Part shown: piece after piece, positions 18,964 to 25,284 of the stretch
How positions within the stretch are numbered: the first letter of the stretch is position 1
How the letters are laid out: every line of letters starts with the position of its first letter
Virus record (IMG/VR): IMGVR_UViG_3300001472_000157
Span: 1-25,374 of that record
DNA length: 25,374 nt
Origin: a virus
Reading direction: 5' to 3' (one strand)
The notes under the pieces: generated by a model
Told to the model about the DNA's origin: nothing
Database searches by the model: none
The model's input: the letters and a program-made list of their open reading frames with translations, nothing else
Program-made: the position numbers and the translations under genes

Positions 18964-20271
18964 TTATTCCCCTATCGCCACGGCTTGACGGCCCCGGTAG
19001 TCGTTGGTCTCGTAGTTCATAACATTGTAATCCATATCAGCAACCGCTTGCTGGCGGTATACCTCGCCAGTTTTGTTCACCAATTTCGGGAATAGTTCGG
19101 TAAACCCCCACACCATAGCATCAACTCTGTCGGGCGATCCATCGCCTTCGTAGCCCGCAACTGTCATCTGGCACATCTCGGATTCCAACTGCGGAAACGT
19201 GCCGACATGGTGGATGCGGCCCAGCGAATAGAGCGCGCTGATAGGCTCGGCCCTAACGTGTTTGCCCCGCGTCGCGTGGACCTCGATGATATTGATGCCG
19301 GGGCGGACGCTGTTCAGGACGTGGCGGCACATATCACCGCCCTGATTCTTCTCAATCACAATCCCGTCGGCATCGTAGCGGTCGTACAGGGCGATGGCAC
19401 GCCTTGCCCATTGTTCCGGTGCGCCCCGTGTCGAGCCGTCTTCCAGCACGTAGCCATGACCGGACTGGCTGGACGCCACCGCCATGACGCCGTGGCTGTC
19501 TGAGTGCTCGTGACTAGACACCGCCGGGTCAACGGCTATCAGGATGCGTGACAGATCGTTCGGAACCTCGGTTTGACGCCCCTCGTTGATGTCTCGCATT
19601 GTCCAGATCGCGCCGACCGCTTGCGGCTCGTAGTCGCCTTCCCAGATATGGCTGTATCGGTCGGGCCGCATACGATGGTCAAGCGCCCGTTCTGCTTCAA
19701 GCGCTTTAGGAAACCACGGGTTGCTGTCGTGGTTGACCTGCACCACCGCCGCGCCTTCGGGAACGTCATCGCCGCGTAGGAACTTGTCAACCGCATCAAG
19801 ACGGTTGCGCGGGTTCCAACTGAAGTACATCTGCGATCCGGGCGAGCGAATGGTCGGTCGCAGTAGCTCAAGCGACTTAGCCGACAGCGTTTGAGCCTCT
19901 TCAACCCAAGCAATGCGGAAACCTTCCAGCGATTTAATACTTTCCGCCGTGTGGTCCTGCATCCCCATAAAGATAACCACACCGCCCTGCGTTGTTTCGA
20001 TCCGGTCGTGCATAACTCTGAAACGGTCGGAAACACCGAGAGCGGTGATCTTGTCGCCTATCAGCCGATATGCCGACTCACGCAAGGATTTCTGGACTTC
20101 ACGGATGCAAACGGCACGGATGGTCGGGTCTTCGATCATCCTGTCCACAATGCGCTCCGCAAAATGGTGCGACTTGCCGGACCCTCGGCCACCGTGTGCG
20201 CCGAGGTAACGCAATCCCGGCTGGAACAGGGGCCGAAATGCTTTAGGCGTCGGGATCGTTAATTTTGCCAT
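18964..20271 (-). CDS. terL: Terminase large subunit (DNA-packaging ATPase/nuclease)
   Basis: I choose ATG at 20271 (MAKLTIPTPKAF), giving 435 residues; a TTG at 20298 has poorer spacing. The ATPase domain carries Walker A at 27-34 (GGRGSGKS), Walker B at 118-125 (FRIAWVEE, catalytic Glu 124/125) and a coupling-motif-like stretch near 150 (FSWNPRN). The C-terminal RNase H-like nuclease shows its acidic residues at D248 (ILIAVDPAVSS), E307 (GIVIEKNQGGD) and D381/D384 (PDRVDAMVWG). It resembles the PBSX/Terminase_3 type. It cuts the concatemer and pumps DNA through the portal. Its start overlaps the small terminase gene by 29 bases. Confidence 0.93.
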   Translation of the reverse strand: MAKLTIPTPKAFRPLFQPGLRYLGAHGGRGSGKSHHFAERIVDRMIEDPTIRAVCIREVQKSLRESAYRLIGDKITALGVSDRFRVMHDRIETTQGGVVIFMGMQDHTAESIKSLEGFRIAWVEEAQTLSAKSLELLRPTIRSPGSQMYFSWNPRNRLDAVDKFLRGDDVPEGAAVVQVNHDSNPWFPKALEAERALDHRMRPDRYSHIWEGDYEPQAVGAIWTMRDINEGRQTEVPNDLSRILIAVDPAVSSHEHSDSHGVMAVASSQSGHGYVLEDGSTRGAPEQWARRAIALYDRYDADGIVIEKNQGGDMCRHVLNSVRPGINIIEVHATRGKHVRAEPISALYSLGRIHHVGTFPQLESEMCQMTVAGYEGDGSPDRVDAMVWGFTELFPKLVNKTGEVYRQQAVADMDYNVMNYETNDYRGRQAVAIGE

Positions 20272-20620
20272 CAACAAACACTCGCTCAATTGTTTCAATC
20301 CTGCCGGTATGTTCTATCTCTTGCTTTTCCTTCCAGCCCATCTGCGTCTTGGCCCAGAAGATAGCCGCCGAAGTGTCGCCGTTCATAACCTTGTTGAACA
20401 GCGTCCCGCCAACCTTGGCGTTCGCCAGTATCTTACTCTCGCGGATTTCCTTCTTGAAATGCTTGGCAAGCGTGTCCGCATCGATGCCGTCGCGGATCAC
20501 CATGGCAATCTGCTCCTGCGGTATGCCGACAGCCACCATCTGACCGACCTGTTTGCGCTCGTCGTCCGTTGGCTTGAACGGCGGACGGCCCGTTGGTTTA
20601 CCCGTTGGTTTACGCGGCAT
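20243..20620 (-). CDS. terS: Terminase small subunit
   Basis: A 125-residue protein immediately before the large terminase. The N-terminus is basic and proline-rich, with an AT-hook-like tract (RKPTGKPTGRPPFKPT). Next comes a helix-turn-helix (ERKQVGQMVAVGIPQEQIAM, then VIRDGIDADTLAKHFKKEIR) that would bind the packaging site. A second helical part (NAKVGGTLFNKVMNGDTSAA, followed by IFWAKTQMGWKE) is a well-known phrase in small terminases of this kind. The protein forms a ring that selects viral DNA and stimulates the large subunit. Its ATG lies inside the end of the methyltransferase gene (11-base overlap). Confidence 0.87.
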   Translation of the reverse strand: MPRKPTGKPTGRPPFKPTDDERKQVGQMVAVGIPQEQIAMVIRDGIDADTLAKHFKKEIRESKILANAKVGGTLFNKVMNGDTSAAIFWAKTQMGWKEKQEIEHTGRIETIERVFVDGKINDPDA

Positions 20621-21785
20621 CTGCTTCCAATCCCTTTTCTAATACCGAAAAAGACTTACCATTTGCCTCAAGCGTAGCATCTTTCCCGGTAAAGTCACAC
20701 CACCGCTTTACGATCACGTCGCAGTATTTGGGGTCGAGTTCCATAATGTAACCAGTAATTTCATACTTCTCTGCGGCAATTAGCGTTGACCCTGATCCGC
20801 CAAACACGTCAAGGATGGCTTTAGATGACAATTTGAAGCGTTTAATGATCCACTCCATGAGACTTACGGGCTTCTGTGTCGGATGAACTCGGTTTGTCTT
20901 TTCAGACGCTTGCGTGAATTGACGAACAACGCTTCTGAAATTCCCCCACGCTAACTCGCAGTCTGTTTGGTCAGAGTCGCCGTTGTTCTTATCCCACACC
21001 AACCAACACTCGCTGTCTGGCAAAACGCTGCTGTAATAATTTGCACCCCACCATATGTGCTTTGCGTTTGGCAGCATCCCGTATATTAGCCTGAACGAGT
21101 CCTTTGCCACGTCAGAATTATCATCACCAAGAATGTCTCCGCTGTAGTTGGCTGACAATACGCCGCTCTTAGAAACGGCATTTATCCCATAAGGCGGATC
21201 AGTATGAACCAAATCAATCTGCGCCCCGTTAATTAACCGCTCCACCGCATCAATGCTGGTGCTATCTCCGCACATCAGCCGATGATCGCCCATCAGCCAA
21301 ACGTCGCCCAACACCGTCACCGGGTTCTCCGGCACGTCAGGCACCGCGTCCTCATCGGTCAGCCCTTCGGTCGGATCAACCAGCATATTGGCTAGCATAT
21401 CATCGCCAAACCCGATCAGGGACAGATCGAAGCCATCCGCGTCCAAGTCTTTCATTTCCACCGATAGCAAATCCATATCCCACCCGGCGTTCTGCGGTAG
21501 CTGATTATCCGCCAGCACGTAGGCTTGCTTCTGCGCCTTCGTCCAGCCGGTCGCCGTCATGGTTGGCACTTCCTCAATGCCCAGCTTCCGCGCCGCCATG
21601 ACGCGGCCATGCCCCGCGATGATCTCACCATCCTCATCTACCAACACTGGGGTCGTCCATCCCCATTCTTTTATCGACGCTGCAAGCTGCGCCACCTGTT
21701 CGTCAGAATGCGTTCGTGCGTTCCTCGCGTATGGTATCAGCGCATCCACTTTGCGCCGTTTAATTTTATCTGCGGGCCAATCCAT
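20610..21785 (-). CDS. ParB-like domain fused to beta-class DNA methyltransferase
   Basis: I choose ATG at 21785 (MDWPADKIKRRKVDALIPYA) because AGGACAGGA lies just upstream; an extended reading to 21866 adds 27 residues over the previous gene. The protein has 391 residues. Residues ~10-100 form a ParB/sulfiredoxin-like domain, with IPYARNARTHSDEQ, EIIAGHGRVMAARKLG (GHGR at 58-61) and VLADNQL. The methyltransferase has motif IV DPPYG at 196-200, a target-recognition region, HPTQKP at 301-306 and the AdoMet motif DVFGGSGST at 326-334. This permuted order (motif IV before motif I) is the beta class, methylating adenine-N6 or cytosine-N4. No paired restriction enzyme is seen, so anti-restriction or packaging-linked modification is likely. 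Confidence 0.92.
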   Translation of the reverse strand: MDWPADKIKRRKVDALIPYARNARTHSDEQVAQLAASIKEWGWTTPVLVDEDGEIIAGHGRVMAARKLGIEEVPTMTATGWTKAQKQAYVLADNQLPQNAGWDMDLLSVEMKDLDADGFDLSLIGFGDDMLANMLVDPTEGLTDEDAVPDVPENPVTVLGDVWLMGDHRLMCGDSTSIDAVERLINGAQIDLVHTDPPYGINAVSKSGVLSANYSGDILGDDNSDVAKDSFRLIYGMLPNAKHIWWGANYYSSVLPDSECWLVWDKNNGDSDQTDCELAWGNFRSVVRQFTQASEKTNRVHPTQKPVSLMEWIIKRFKLSSKAILDVFGGSGSTLIAAEKYEITGYIMELDPKYCDVIVKRWCDFTGKDATLEANGKSFSVLEKGLEADAA

Positions 21786-21798
21786 AGTTCCTGTCCTT

Positions 21799-22377
21799 TC
21801 AAAAAGGTATGTCACTGTCCAGCGATTGCCGTGACAGTCTAGGGCGGATGTCTTCAACGACAGCATCCGGGAAATTCTTCTTCACCACGTTCAGCAGGGT
21901 ATTGGCTTCAAGAATGCGCCCCACTTCTTCCAGCGAGTAAACCGCGACACCTTCAAATTCTGGCATTGTTTTGATTGCTTTGAAAGCGTCAGCGTTAGAT
22001 CGCGCAATAGCGCACTTAAAACCGTCGTCGGTCGTGTAGCTCCAAACGTCAGGCACCAGCGCCTCGTTGCCACGTTGCGTGGCCTCAGTGTCCATCGCCG
22101 CCCAGCCGCGCGCCAAAACATCGGCTCGTTTAATTACCTCCTGCGGATCGTTCAAAACAATGGCCGCGTCCAGTTTCGCCTTGGCCGATCCAAACCGTGA
22201 GGCCATCTCAGGGCTGACTAGTTCTGGCAAGCGGTCGCATCCCCATTTGGTTTCCGCGTCAGTCGCTATTCTGTCGAGTGGCATAATGGCGTGGTGGATA
22301 GCCTCAGCAACACTGTCGCCTACGCCTCCCTGATCTAGTATGCGATCGGGACGCCGCCGTTTTGTTTTCGTTGCCAT
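21799..22377 (-). CDS. Replication-module protein with an SSB-type C-terminal tail
   Basis: I choose ATG at 22377 (MATKTKRRRPDRI), 7 bases after AGGGA; an ATG six bases upstream is too close to that site. The product has 192 residues. A basic N-terminus (KTKRRRPDR) leads into a helical body (GVGDSVAEAIHHAIMPLDRI, then FGSAKAKLDAAIVLNDPQEV and IKRADVLARGWAAMDTEATQ). A mixed segment follows (VPDVWSYTTDDGFKCAIARS), then a helix before the end. The last residues, SRQSLDSDIPF, nearly match the terminal DDDIPF of bacterial SSB, the docking peptide for replication and repair enzymes. The family is unknown to me. It lies between the PrimPol-helicase and the methyltransferase. Confidence 0.8.
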   Translation of the reverse strand: MATKTKRRRPDRILDQGGVGDSVAEAIHHAIMPLDRIATDAETKWGCDRLPELVSPEMASRFGSAKAKLDAAIVLNDPQEVIKRADVLARGWAAMDTEATQRGNEALVPDVWSYTTDDGFKCAIARSNADAFKAIKTMPEFEGVAVYSLEEVGRILEANTLLNVVKKNFPDAVVEDIRPRLSRQSLDSDIPF

Positions 22378-22470: not shown

Positions 22471-22572
22471 TTAAGTCATTGATTCTATTGCGTTATTAGG
22501 AAAGCGTGTAATCAGATACCGCGATGTTGAGAACGCGCGCAATTTCAATGGGTTATGCTCCAAATGTACCAT
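22471..22572 (-). CDS. Possible 33-residue ORF coupled to the PrimPol-helicase
   Basis: An ATG overlapping the PrimPol-helicase stop (TAATG) opens 33 codons: MVHLEHNPLKLRAFSTSRYL, then ITRFPNNAIESMT. GAAAAGAG lies about 7 bases upstream. The coupling favours translation, but the peptide is short and unrecognised. A different frame of the same DNA reads IEIARVLNIAVSDYTLS without a start codon, which looks more protein-like, so the region may be a decayed gene end rather than a functional small ORF. Confidence 0.35.
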   Translation of the reverse strand: MVHLEHNPLKLRAFSTSRYLITRFPNNAIESMT

Positions 22573-24560
22573 TATACGCTCTTTTCCGTTTTGAACCCGT
22601 AACGGTCAATATGGACGATATTTCCATCCGCTATGAGGGCATTTGCGGCCTTGATTACAGCCGCAGGTTTGTGTGTTGGTAGCTGCCGTGGGAGGGCTAC
22701 TTTGTAGCCTCGTGCGCCTTGTTTGCGGAACGCGTTCTTCTCGCCCCATGCAATATCGACCTCGGCCATGATGGCATGTTTGAGGGTCGTGGCGTTGATC
22801 CTGTCGAGTGCGTCTTCAGATGCCGGGATCGCCAGCACGCCATTTTCCCATATCAGTTGGATGTCGTTATTGCCGCTGATGTCGCTGTAGTTTGATTTCT
22901 TGCGGGAGAGTATGCGGATGTCGTCGCTGTCTTCCTGTCTGGCGAGGTATGCACGCGCCCTGACGCTGTTCTCCCACGCTGTTGACCCTGACATGCCCGA
23001 ACCACTAGCAAGCCCTGACAGGCTCGGGTGGGCCAGCAGGATAACGGTTGCGTTGTGATTTACCACGATGCTGCCCAGATATGTCTTAATGAACGTGTTA
23101 ACGGTTCGCCGCTCGTTCTCGTTGCCGCCGAACATATCTGCCGCTGTGTCGAGTATTATCAGGATTTCTCCCGCATCGCCCTTAACTTCGCGCACCTTGT
23201 CGCAGAGGTTTAGGTAAAACTCTCCGGGTTCGTCTTTCCCGGCGTTGGGCCACGTTACCAGCACGTTATCAGCGCCGACGCGGGGCCAAAGAACTAGATT
23301 GTCAGGGCCGTTGCCGAAGTCGTCTATGCCTCGTGATTCGTTGATCCGCAGCTGGCGGCGCTTCACCTCGTCGGCGTCGTCCTCGCACATAACGCTAAGA
23401 ACCGGCATCTTCATGGTCTCGATGCCCAGAAACCGCTCACCCTCGGCCACTGCGTTAGCAAACTGCTGCATCAGGAGCGTCTTACCGACCCCACCAGCCC
23501 CGAACAGCATCCCCACCGTGCGTGAGGGCCACCAGCCATCCAGCACCCACTCACGGGGCGGTATAGGGCCGACAACGCTGGCGGCTGTAAAACTTCCGTC
23601 CGTTGCGTCCGTCGCTGGTGTAGTTTGAATTTCTTCTTCTGCTAGATCAGCCGGGCCGTACTTCCTATCCCAATTCGCAATGTCAAACCCCGCCTCCGCT
23701 GCAAGGTGAAACAGCGAACCCGCGCCAATTTTGCTGACGCTCCCGATTGACGCCCACAAGCGCTCGGTCTCGTCGTGTTCGTATTTGTCGGATTTCTGGC
23801 TGAACTCGTGAAACAGGGCGAGGCCGTCATCCCCAACCGCCGCCTTGAAAGCGTGGCCCAAGCGCACCCAATCGTCGTAATGAAGGCTAGGGTTTTCGAG
23901 ATACGGCACCGCAGCGGCCAGCTTCGCCATGCTGGTAGCGGTGTCGCTCTCCTGAAAGTCGAAGTTGGAGCCATTATCAAACGGCAGGACGTTCGTGTGA
24001 GAACGCGCCTTTATGTCACCAAAATCCGCCAGCGCCGCGTTGCATGTCGCAATGAAACTCGTGATATCGCTGGGCGTCAGGGCGGTGAGTTCCTCTGGCC
24101 GGTAGTCCAGCAGGGAATCGTCGGGCCATGAATAGTTTTTGTGCGTGTCGGGGTGCAGCCCGGAGGCCACAAATTGCTGGCCCTCTGCGAGACACTCAAC
24201 ACAGGCATCGCCGTTGATTTCGAAAATGGATGTTTTAATTTTCCGCACCGGCTCGGTGCAGCGGTAGACCAGCAGCGTCTTGGGCGCGCTGCCTATTCGT
24301 TCCGGCGCGCTGCCCAGCATGTCGTCGGCCAGATTGCGAATGACGTTCGCGGCCGTGGCGCTTCTCACGTCGATGTCGATAGCGATGAGGTTGTGCTTGC
24401 CGCCCAGAACCACGCCTATGTTGGCGTCACCCCATTTATCCCAATCCAGCGCCGCGTCAGGTCGATGCTGCCAGCCGGTAAGCTGCGGAATTTTACCCCG
24501 CAGCGGCGTAACGTCGAAGCCGCGATGCGAAAGTTCTTGTCCAAATTTTGCGTATCTCAT
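22572..24560 (-). CDS. Bifunctional primase-polymerase / RepA-like helicase
   Basis: A 662-residue protein with AGGG 8 bases before its ATG. The N-terminal archaeo-eukaryotic-primase-like (PrimPol) domain spans about 1-165: FDVTPLRGKIPQLTGW, the catalytic DxD at 62/64 (LIAIDIDV) and the histidine motif at 131-137 (VASGLHP). A PriCT-type segment follows (about 228-275, YDDWVRLGHAFKAAVGDDGL). The C-terminal RecA-fold ATPase has Walker A at 354-361 (GAGGVGKT), Walker B at 466-471 (ILIILD) and HPSLSG near 511-516, as in RepA/DnaB-like hexameric helicases. It would unwind the origin and prime or extend DNA. It is the main replication protein visible in the window. Confidence 0.92.
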   Translation of the reverse strand: MRYAKFGQELSHRGFDVTPLRGKIPQLTGWQHRPDAALDWDKWGDANIGVVLGGKHNLIAIDIDVRSATAANVIRNLADDMLGSAPERIGSAPKTLLVYRCTEPVRKIKTSIFEINGDACVECLAEGQQFVASGLHPDTHKNYSWPDDSLLDYRPEELTALTPSDITSFIATCNAALADFGDIKARSHTNVLPFDNGSNFDFQESDTATSMAKLAAAVPYLENPSLHYDDWVRLGHAFKAAVGDDGLALFHEFSQKSDKYEHDETERLWASIGSVSKIGAGSLFHLAAEAGFDIANWDRKYGPADLAEEEIQTTPATDATDGSFTAASVVGPIPPREWVLDGWWPSRTVGMLFGAGGVGKTLLMQQFANAVAEGERFLGIETMKMPVLSVMCEDDADEVKRRQLRINESRGIDDFGNGPDNLVLWPRVGADNVLVTWPNAGKDEPGEFYLNLCDKVREVKGDAGEILIILDTAADMFGGNENERRTVNTFIKTYLGSIVVNHNATVILLAHPSLSGLASGSGMSGSTAWENSVRARAYLARQEDSDDIRILSRKKSNYSDISGNNDIQLIWENGVLAIPASEDALDRINATTLKHAIMAEVDIAWGEKNAFRKQGARGYKVALPRQLPTHKPAAVIKAANALIADGNIVHIDRYGFKTEKSV

Positions 24561-24672: not shown

Positions 24673-25284
24673 TTAGAACTCATCGTCAGCCTCAACCGCC
24701 GCAGCTTCTTGCTCCGGCTCAGACGATGCTGTCAGGCAGTCCGGGCGGTCTGACCATTTCTTGACAGTCCACATCGGGGCCGACGTTGACCCCTTCTTGA
24801 ACTTGATCTCGTCAACGTCAGTCATGGCCGCGACGACACACTCACCGGAGCCGTCGTTTTCCTTGACCTCGCGCATCAGATGCACCAGACCGGCCCACGC
24901 ACCAGCGCCAGCCTGAGACCATGTTGCGGCCTGATTCTTCCCCAATCCAACGCGGACGGAAAAACCTTTTTTCCAACGCTCGCCTCCCCGGTCTTCCGGC
25001 TGGGCCGTGTTAAAGCGGGACGGACTGTCGTTCCACTGCCACTCTGGGGCCACCCCCGGCGACCCATCTGAGAAGCACCAGCCTGTCCGCAGCGTGTCGA
25101 GATCAAACGCCACGCCCTTCTTCATTTTAGCGGTGACATCAACCCGCTCGCCTTCCTCGTCCCGAATGGAGAAAGTGCGAGAACCCAGCGCGCCGTCGAG
25201 AGTCTCTCTGGCATGCCAATTCAGGAACGGCCCGATTGCGGAGTCTGAGGAGGAGTTGGAACCTTCGTCAAAGTCATATGACAT
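24673..25284 (-). CDS. Probable phage single-stranded DNA-binding protein (SSB-like)
   Basis: A 203-residue protein, ATG preceded by AAGGAA at 7 bases. The body is beta-rich with many aromatic residues (IGPFLNWHARETLDGALGSR, TFSIRDEEGERVDVTAKMKK, WSQAGAGAWAGLVHLMREVK). It ends in an acidic disordered tail (EPEQEAAAVEADDEF): acidic residues with a C-terminal Phe, the layout of the SSB protein-docking tail. Proteins of this style are encoded directly upstream of PrimPol-helicases in several alphaproteobacterial phages and prophages I recall, but I cannot confirm an OB fold by eye. It would coat single-stranded DNA and recruit partners during replication. Confidence 0.75.
   Translation of the reverse strand: MSYDFDEGSNSSSDSAIGPFLNWHARETLDGALGSRTFSIRDEEGERVDVTAKMKKGVAFDLDTLRTGWCFSDGSPGVAPEWQWNDSPSRFNTAQPEDRGGERWKKGFSVRVGLGKNQAATWSQAGAGAWAGLVHLMREVKENDGSGECVVAAMTDVDEIKFKKGSTSAPMWTVKKWSDRPDCLTASSEPEQEAAAVEADDEF

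Follow-up and report, generated by a model that had tools for sequence, protein, structure and literature searches.

The window analysed here is a linear viral record of 25,374 bases. Its minus strand carries a gene for a 192 amino acid protein, referred to below as the tail protein. The gene is part of a 194 aa open reading frame, and homologues start at the second methionine of that frame. Their starts favour the ATG at position 22377 and the 192 aa product. The C-terminal end of the protein is ...RPRLSRQSLDSDIPF. Nucleotide positions 21799-21840 translate on the minus strand to LSRQSLDSDIPF, so that the protein closes with SLDSDIPF and the stop codon occupies positions 21799-21801. Table 1 lists the features of the locus.

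Table 1. Positions of the tail protein gene, its parts and neighbouring genes in the window
Feature	Position	Strand	Basis or remark
Tail protein gene, 192 aa	21799..22377	(-)	Open reading frame and translation; follows the primase-helicase gene
SSB-type docking tail DSDIPF	21802..21819	(-)	Family consensus [DN]-D-x-[IVL]-P-[FW]
Variable linker, residues 173-185, predicted disordered	21823..21861	(-)	Low column information; low pLDDT from about residue 181
Small alpha/beta domain, residues 111-168	21874..22047	(-)	AlphaFold2 model
Three-helix bundle, residues 22-101	22075..22314	(-)	AlphaFold2 model and column conservation
Basic disordered N-terminus (MATKTKRRRPDRIL)	22336..22377	(-)	Translation; pLDDT about 52
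Primase-helicase, Prim-Pol + PriCT_2 + AAA_25	22572..24560	(-)	Pfam domains; upstream of the tail protein gene
X-type protein, 203 aa, probable phage ssDNA-binding protein	24673..25284	(-)	Slot upstream of the primase-helicase; beta-rich model
T7-type acidic-Phe tail DDEF of the X-type protein (ends ADDEF)	24676..24687	(-)	Translation; not DIPF
ParB-N + DNA methyltransferase gene, next after the tail protein gene	20610..21785	(-)	Domain matches

Most loci that show both genes have the tail protein gene after that of the primase-helicase. A sequence-only reading of this DNA had taken the neighbour to be a PrimPol-helicase, and its Pfam domains agree with this. Downstream of the tail protein gene in the window are the ParB-methyltransferase gene, whose ribosome-binding region abuts the tail gene stop codon, and terminase genes, including a separate small terminase (phrog_309) at 20243-20620. 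The gene that follows the tail gene differs between loci: in the window ParB-N is fused to a DNA methyltransferase, and in a close relative (L002/L012; L002:5518-6210) ParB-N has an unrelated C-terminus and is followed by other inserted genes.

Among the hub peptides of bacterial genome maintenance, the C-terminal peptide of SSB (SSB-Ct, DDDIPF) is the best known, and it is taught as belonging to SSB itself; RecO is among its partners. SSB-Ct also binds DnaG, the chi subunit, PriA and ExoI, whose pockets read the carboxylate of the terminal Phe via a salt bridge (PMC5872125).

Family of the tail protein and its C-terminal peptide

Viral contigs, scanned with profiles, and phage records together yielded 231 loci with tail protein homologues, which represent 175 distinct proteins. 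Six relatives are in annotated phage genomes: five Roseobacter phages (CRP series) and the uncultured phage MW202711. A search for cellular and prophage copies, made with a narrow pattern, gave only two matches in cellular genomes, both of them metagenome-assembled. Pfam and PHROGs show nothing convincing for the tail protein or 42 relatives, no SSB family is matched (PF00436, PF10991, PF21265, phrog_112), and the PDB gives nothing significant by profile or by fold (fold cut-off E <= 0.001). The tail protein belongs to an undescribed phage replication-module family that is not in Pfam or PHROGs. Among viral proteins the fold matches are to uncharacterised relatives, one of which is labelled small terminase. 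An assignment as terminase small subunit was rejected, as the window has its separate phrog_309 gene and the remote match has a TM of about 0.4.

The near-perfect SSB docking tail that the sequence-only reading saw in DSDIPF recurs throughout the family. A strict tail, [DE]x[ILV]P[FW] followed by one residue at most, is present in 165 of the 175 distinct homologues, and a looser form, in which N, C, S or L is also allowed, adds four (169/175). The remaining six fit neither pattern and include the window protein itself, because Ser stands for the acidic residue at position -5; by its sequence DSDIPF plainly appears to be the same tail as that of the family. The commonest ends are DDPIPF, DDDIPF, DDPIPW and DDEIPF, and DDDIPF, exactly as in E. 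coli SSB, is found in 37 loci. The SSB tails of Pseudomonadota genomes (host-type) are mostly FDDDIPF or similar, with one FDDEIPF.

Conservation of the tail extends down to about 30-35% identity among homologues. The tail columns average 3.08 bits of information, against 1.58 for the linker and 2.32 for the body; thus the tail exceeds the adjoining linker in conservation. Among 4001 other distinct open reading frames of the same loci (100 aa or longer), only five have the strict tail: four are CRP-clade SSBs and the fifth is the MW202711 helicase. The latter, a RepA-like helicase (L007:1906-4269), ends FDDIPFD and is a second replication protein with an SSB-like end in that phage.

These counts argue against an origin of the tail by chance. 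A constraint on the DNA, such as the ribosome-binding site of the next gene, might be considered given how closely that region adjoins the stop codon in the window. However, the conserved P, F, D and I are encoded by varying synonymous codons, each of the three stop codons is used, and the downstream genes differ; selection therefore acts on the peptide and not on the DNA. For the family, chance or DNA constraint is refuted by the codon variation and the tail counts, and the probability left to it is negligible.

The terminal Phe or Trp carboxylate is free in most homologues, but 16 loci have one residue beyond it (DDIPWN, DAIPFD, DEIPFG and similar; L039, L044, L090, L128, L175 and L260 are examples). 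For those loci the carboxylate argument is weaker, since an extra residue would interfere with the salt bridge that the terminal carboxylate forms.

Predicted fold and SSB-like neighbours

An AlphaFold2 model built from a 42-sequence alignment (pLDDT 83.6, pTM 0.61) shows, in order, a disordered basic N-terminus, three long helices (positions 22-45, 56-74 and 78-101), a small alpha/beta domain and a disordered tail. The alpha/beta domain is predicted to have strands at 111-115, 121-125 and 145-148 and helices at 128-137, 149-158 and 160-168. The best-conserved motif of the family, W-G-x-(D)-R-L-(P)-x-L-V...F-G-x-A-x-x-K-L, is in the helix bundle. By a rough script, the N-terminal net charge is at least +2 in about half of the non-redundant family. 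An OB fold was considered and rejected, since a helical bundle and a small alpha/beta domain are predicted instead. The model thus agrees with the earlier description of a body that is not an OB-fold SSB and has a basic N-terminus; the description of the body as helical holds for the bundle and has to be amended for the alpha/beta domain.

That the tail protein might be a divergent ssDNA-binding protein, i.e. a plain SSB, is suggested by its SSB tail and replication context. Against this are the predicted fold, the lack of any Pfam, PHROG or PDB relation to SSBs, and the presence in these phages of an SSB or probable SSB; this explanation appears very improbable. The model would still allow the tail protein to bind ssDNA through a non-OB fold.

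The gene for this SSB or probable SSB is the second one upstream of the tail protein gene. Three SSB or SSB-like types are found in this slot upstream of the primase-helicase: the X-type protein, the Enc34/gp2.5 type of the VapE group and the Enc34/gp2.5 type of the CRP phages. The X-type protein has no Pfam, PHROG or PDB match, and a fold search gave no significant match. Its model is beta-rich with an OB-like strand order, and its slot is that of the annotated SSB in CRP phages. From the slot, the acidic-Phe tail and the beta-rich model, it is probably a phage SSB of an unclassified family. Its acidic-Phe C-terminal end is invariant (in the window, in L012:2728-3333 and in relatives). No profile-profile link was found between X-type and Enc34-type SSBs, but the test is insensitive, because two groups that both match phrog_112 also failed to link.

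In the phages with a VapE helicase, the SSB is of the Enc34/gp2.5 type (PF10991, phrog_112) and ends DDMF or DDVF, and DIPF is on the tail protein. Acidic-Phe ends are common to several replication proteins of this group (L080, L248-L266): the DUF3799 PDDEXK nuclease ends EAEDF or ELEDF, and the VapE helicase ends DDLF in some loci. The C-terminal end of the CRP nuclease is QDDEDVF.

Other Enc34/T7-type SSBs end FDDEIPF (CRP-406, L273), DEQIPF (Rhizobium phage RHph_I20, L278) and AEEIPF (S-SRP02, L279), whereas related SSBs of T7-like pelagiphages with their own Pol A end TDF or SDF. Switches of tail type thus occur within a single SSB family.

Distribution of the tail between two proteins

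After removal of redundant pairs, 112 distinct locus pairs have an acidic-Phe end on the SSB (DAEF, DMEF, DDEF, DDVF and so on) together with DIPF on the tail protein; 98 of these are X-type and 14 are Enc34-type (VapE group). Four CRP-type pairs are reversed: the SSB ends DDALPF or DDDIPW, and the 192-aa homologue is tailless, with ends GLFDNK, GLFEQS, GLFEHD and GLFSNQ. CRP-821 agrees with the reversed arrangement. There are no mixed pairs, and exactly one of the two proteins is tailed wherever both are readable. A hidden, frameshifted tail was rejected for the tailless genes, which show no DIPF in another frame downstream.

The tailless clade consists of the Roseobacter phages CRP-811/821/823/831 and one metagenomic relative. 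Homologues lacking DIPF had been named in the sequence-only reading as evidence against a docking tail. Formally they exist in this clade, but there the phage SSB, two genes upstream, bears the tail, which argues for function.

The reversed arrangement is found in one clade only, and no further phage came from the last viral scan. The tailless state is probably one evolutionary event. CRP-406, a related complete phage, is without a tail protein homologue; its SSB ends SSSMDFDDEIPF (FDDEIPF) and is 43% related to the SSBs of the tailless clade. Given the single tailless clade and this kinship, few events underlie the reversed side of the reciprocity. One homologue (L173) is 78% identical to a tailless one (L091) over residues 2-175, yet ends ELDDPIPF; its SSB gene falls off its contig.

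An alternative is that the tail is a decoy that fills the SSB-Ct pockets of host ExoI, RecQ, RecJ, RecO and PriA, blunting host attack or host replication, with no tie to the phage replisome. The conservation of the tail applies equally here, the protein is small with an exposed tail and a soluble competitor needs the peptide alone, and an SSB-borne tail could also act as a decoy. However, the usual position of the gene after that of the primase-helicase, and a strongly conserved body motif as a specific partner would require, speak against a decoy. In addition, the tail is missing exactly where the phage SSB has one, and a separate decoy need not vanish then. A decoy is therefore considered unlikely.

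Proposed role

The family-wide conservation of the tail, its sequence identity with the SSB tails of hosts and a predicted fold that is not OB support the interpretation, at the level of sequence, that an SSB-type docking peptide is borne by a non-OB replication-module protein. The sequence-only reading had left its use as recruitment, sequestration or competition. Sequence alone cannot separate these, and it is the reciprocity that favours recruitment over the other two.

In the 29 records encoding the tail protein, which include complete CRP genomes and MW202711 but are mostly linear metagenomic contigs of unknown completeness, no DNA polymerase of family A, B or C (Pol A, Pol B, Pol III alpha) was found, nor any bacterial SSB (PF00436). 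CRP-822-type subgroups without a polymerase gene depend on host replication machinery (PMC12629253). It should be noted that RHph_I20, whose SSB has the DEQIPF end, encodes Pol A; thus the DIPF tail is not confined to polymerase-less phages.

The tail protein would, on balance probably, be a non-SSB carrier that provides a genuine SSB-Ct on a flexible linker in trans, and so recruits host replication proteins. Its folded body may bind a phage replication component, i.e. the primase-helicase, the phage SSB or forked DNA. The exposed DIPF tail would dock host SSB-Ct-binding proteins, most plausibly Pol III via chi and/or PriA; because the phage has its own primase, these appear likelier targets than DnaG. 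T7-type SSB tails contact the phage polymerase and primase-helicase (PMC5686142). A phage SSB with such a tail would leave host enzymes without the handle they normally use: an acidic-Phe end cannot offer the DIPF peptide, so the second protein would supply it in trans and restore the handle. This would explain why the tail is on either one protein or the other. Where the SSB itself has a DIPF tail, that of the 192-aa protein would be dispensable and then be lost.

Alternatively, instead of host proteins, the docking partner could be a phage protein with an SSB-Ct-like pocket of its own, e.g. the PDDEXK nuclease or the primase-helicase. Stimulation of the phage recombinase Sak4 in phage HK620 requires the six C-terminal residues of the phage SSB, NDYPPF (PMC5928155), and in the present loci replication genes are conserved neighbours. 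HK620 likewise shows a phage-borne SSB-like tail that is needed for function, but that tail is on the SSB and its reader is a phage protein, whereas here it is on a non-SSB protein. Moreover, the tail equals host SSB tails though the neighbouring helicase varies (AAA_25 or VapE). Since the helicase differs between subgroups, no single phage pocket is obvious as the common denominator, and a phage partner seems quite unlikely. Recruitment of host proteins remains the preferred interpretation.

Like bacterial SSB, the tail protein ends in an acidic-I/V/L-P-F/W peptide on a disordered linker; unlike it, the protein has no predicted OB fold, is unrelated to PF00436 and is accompanied by a separate, in part probable, SSB. 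The T7-type/Enc34 SSBs (PF10991, phrog_112, gp2.5) are in the same replication module, and their representative in CRP phages and in CRP-406 itself bears the DIPF tail, but the tail protein is unrelated to them in both sequence and structure. The SSB C-terminus grafted onto PriB stimulates PriA (PMC8509808); therefore the SSB tail is portable. That chimera likewise places the SSB tail on another replication protein, but it is artificial and an OB-fold protein, whereas the tail protein represents a natural family of unrelated fold. No report of phage non-SSB carriers of an SSB tail was found in the open-licence literature.

A broader proposal, for which the chances appear evenly balanced, is that phages without a polymerase divide the two tasks of SSB, ssDNA coating and recruitment of the host replisome, between two proteins, and that the tail moves between them in evolution. 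If true, this would give a mechanism by which polymerase-less phages use their own SSB and yet connect with Pol III or PriA of the host. A phage protein family that had no annotation is named here, with a testable function. A natural non-SSB carrier together with the reciprocal swap would allow the question of which host proteins a phage has to recruit via SSB-Ct to be addressed in a clean genetic system.
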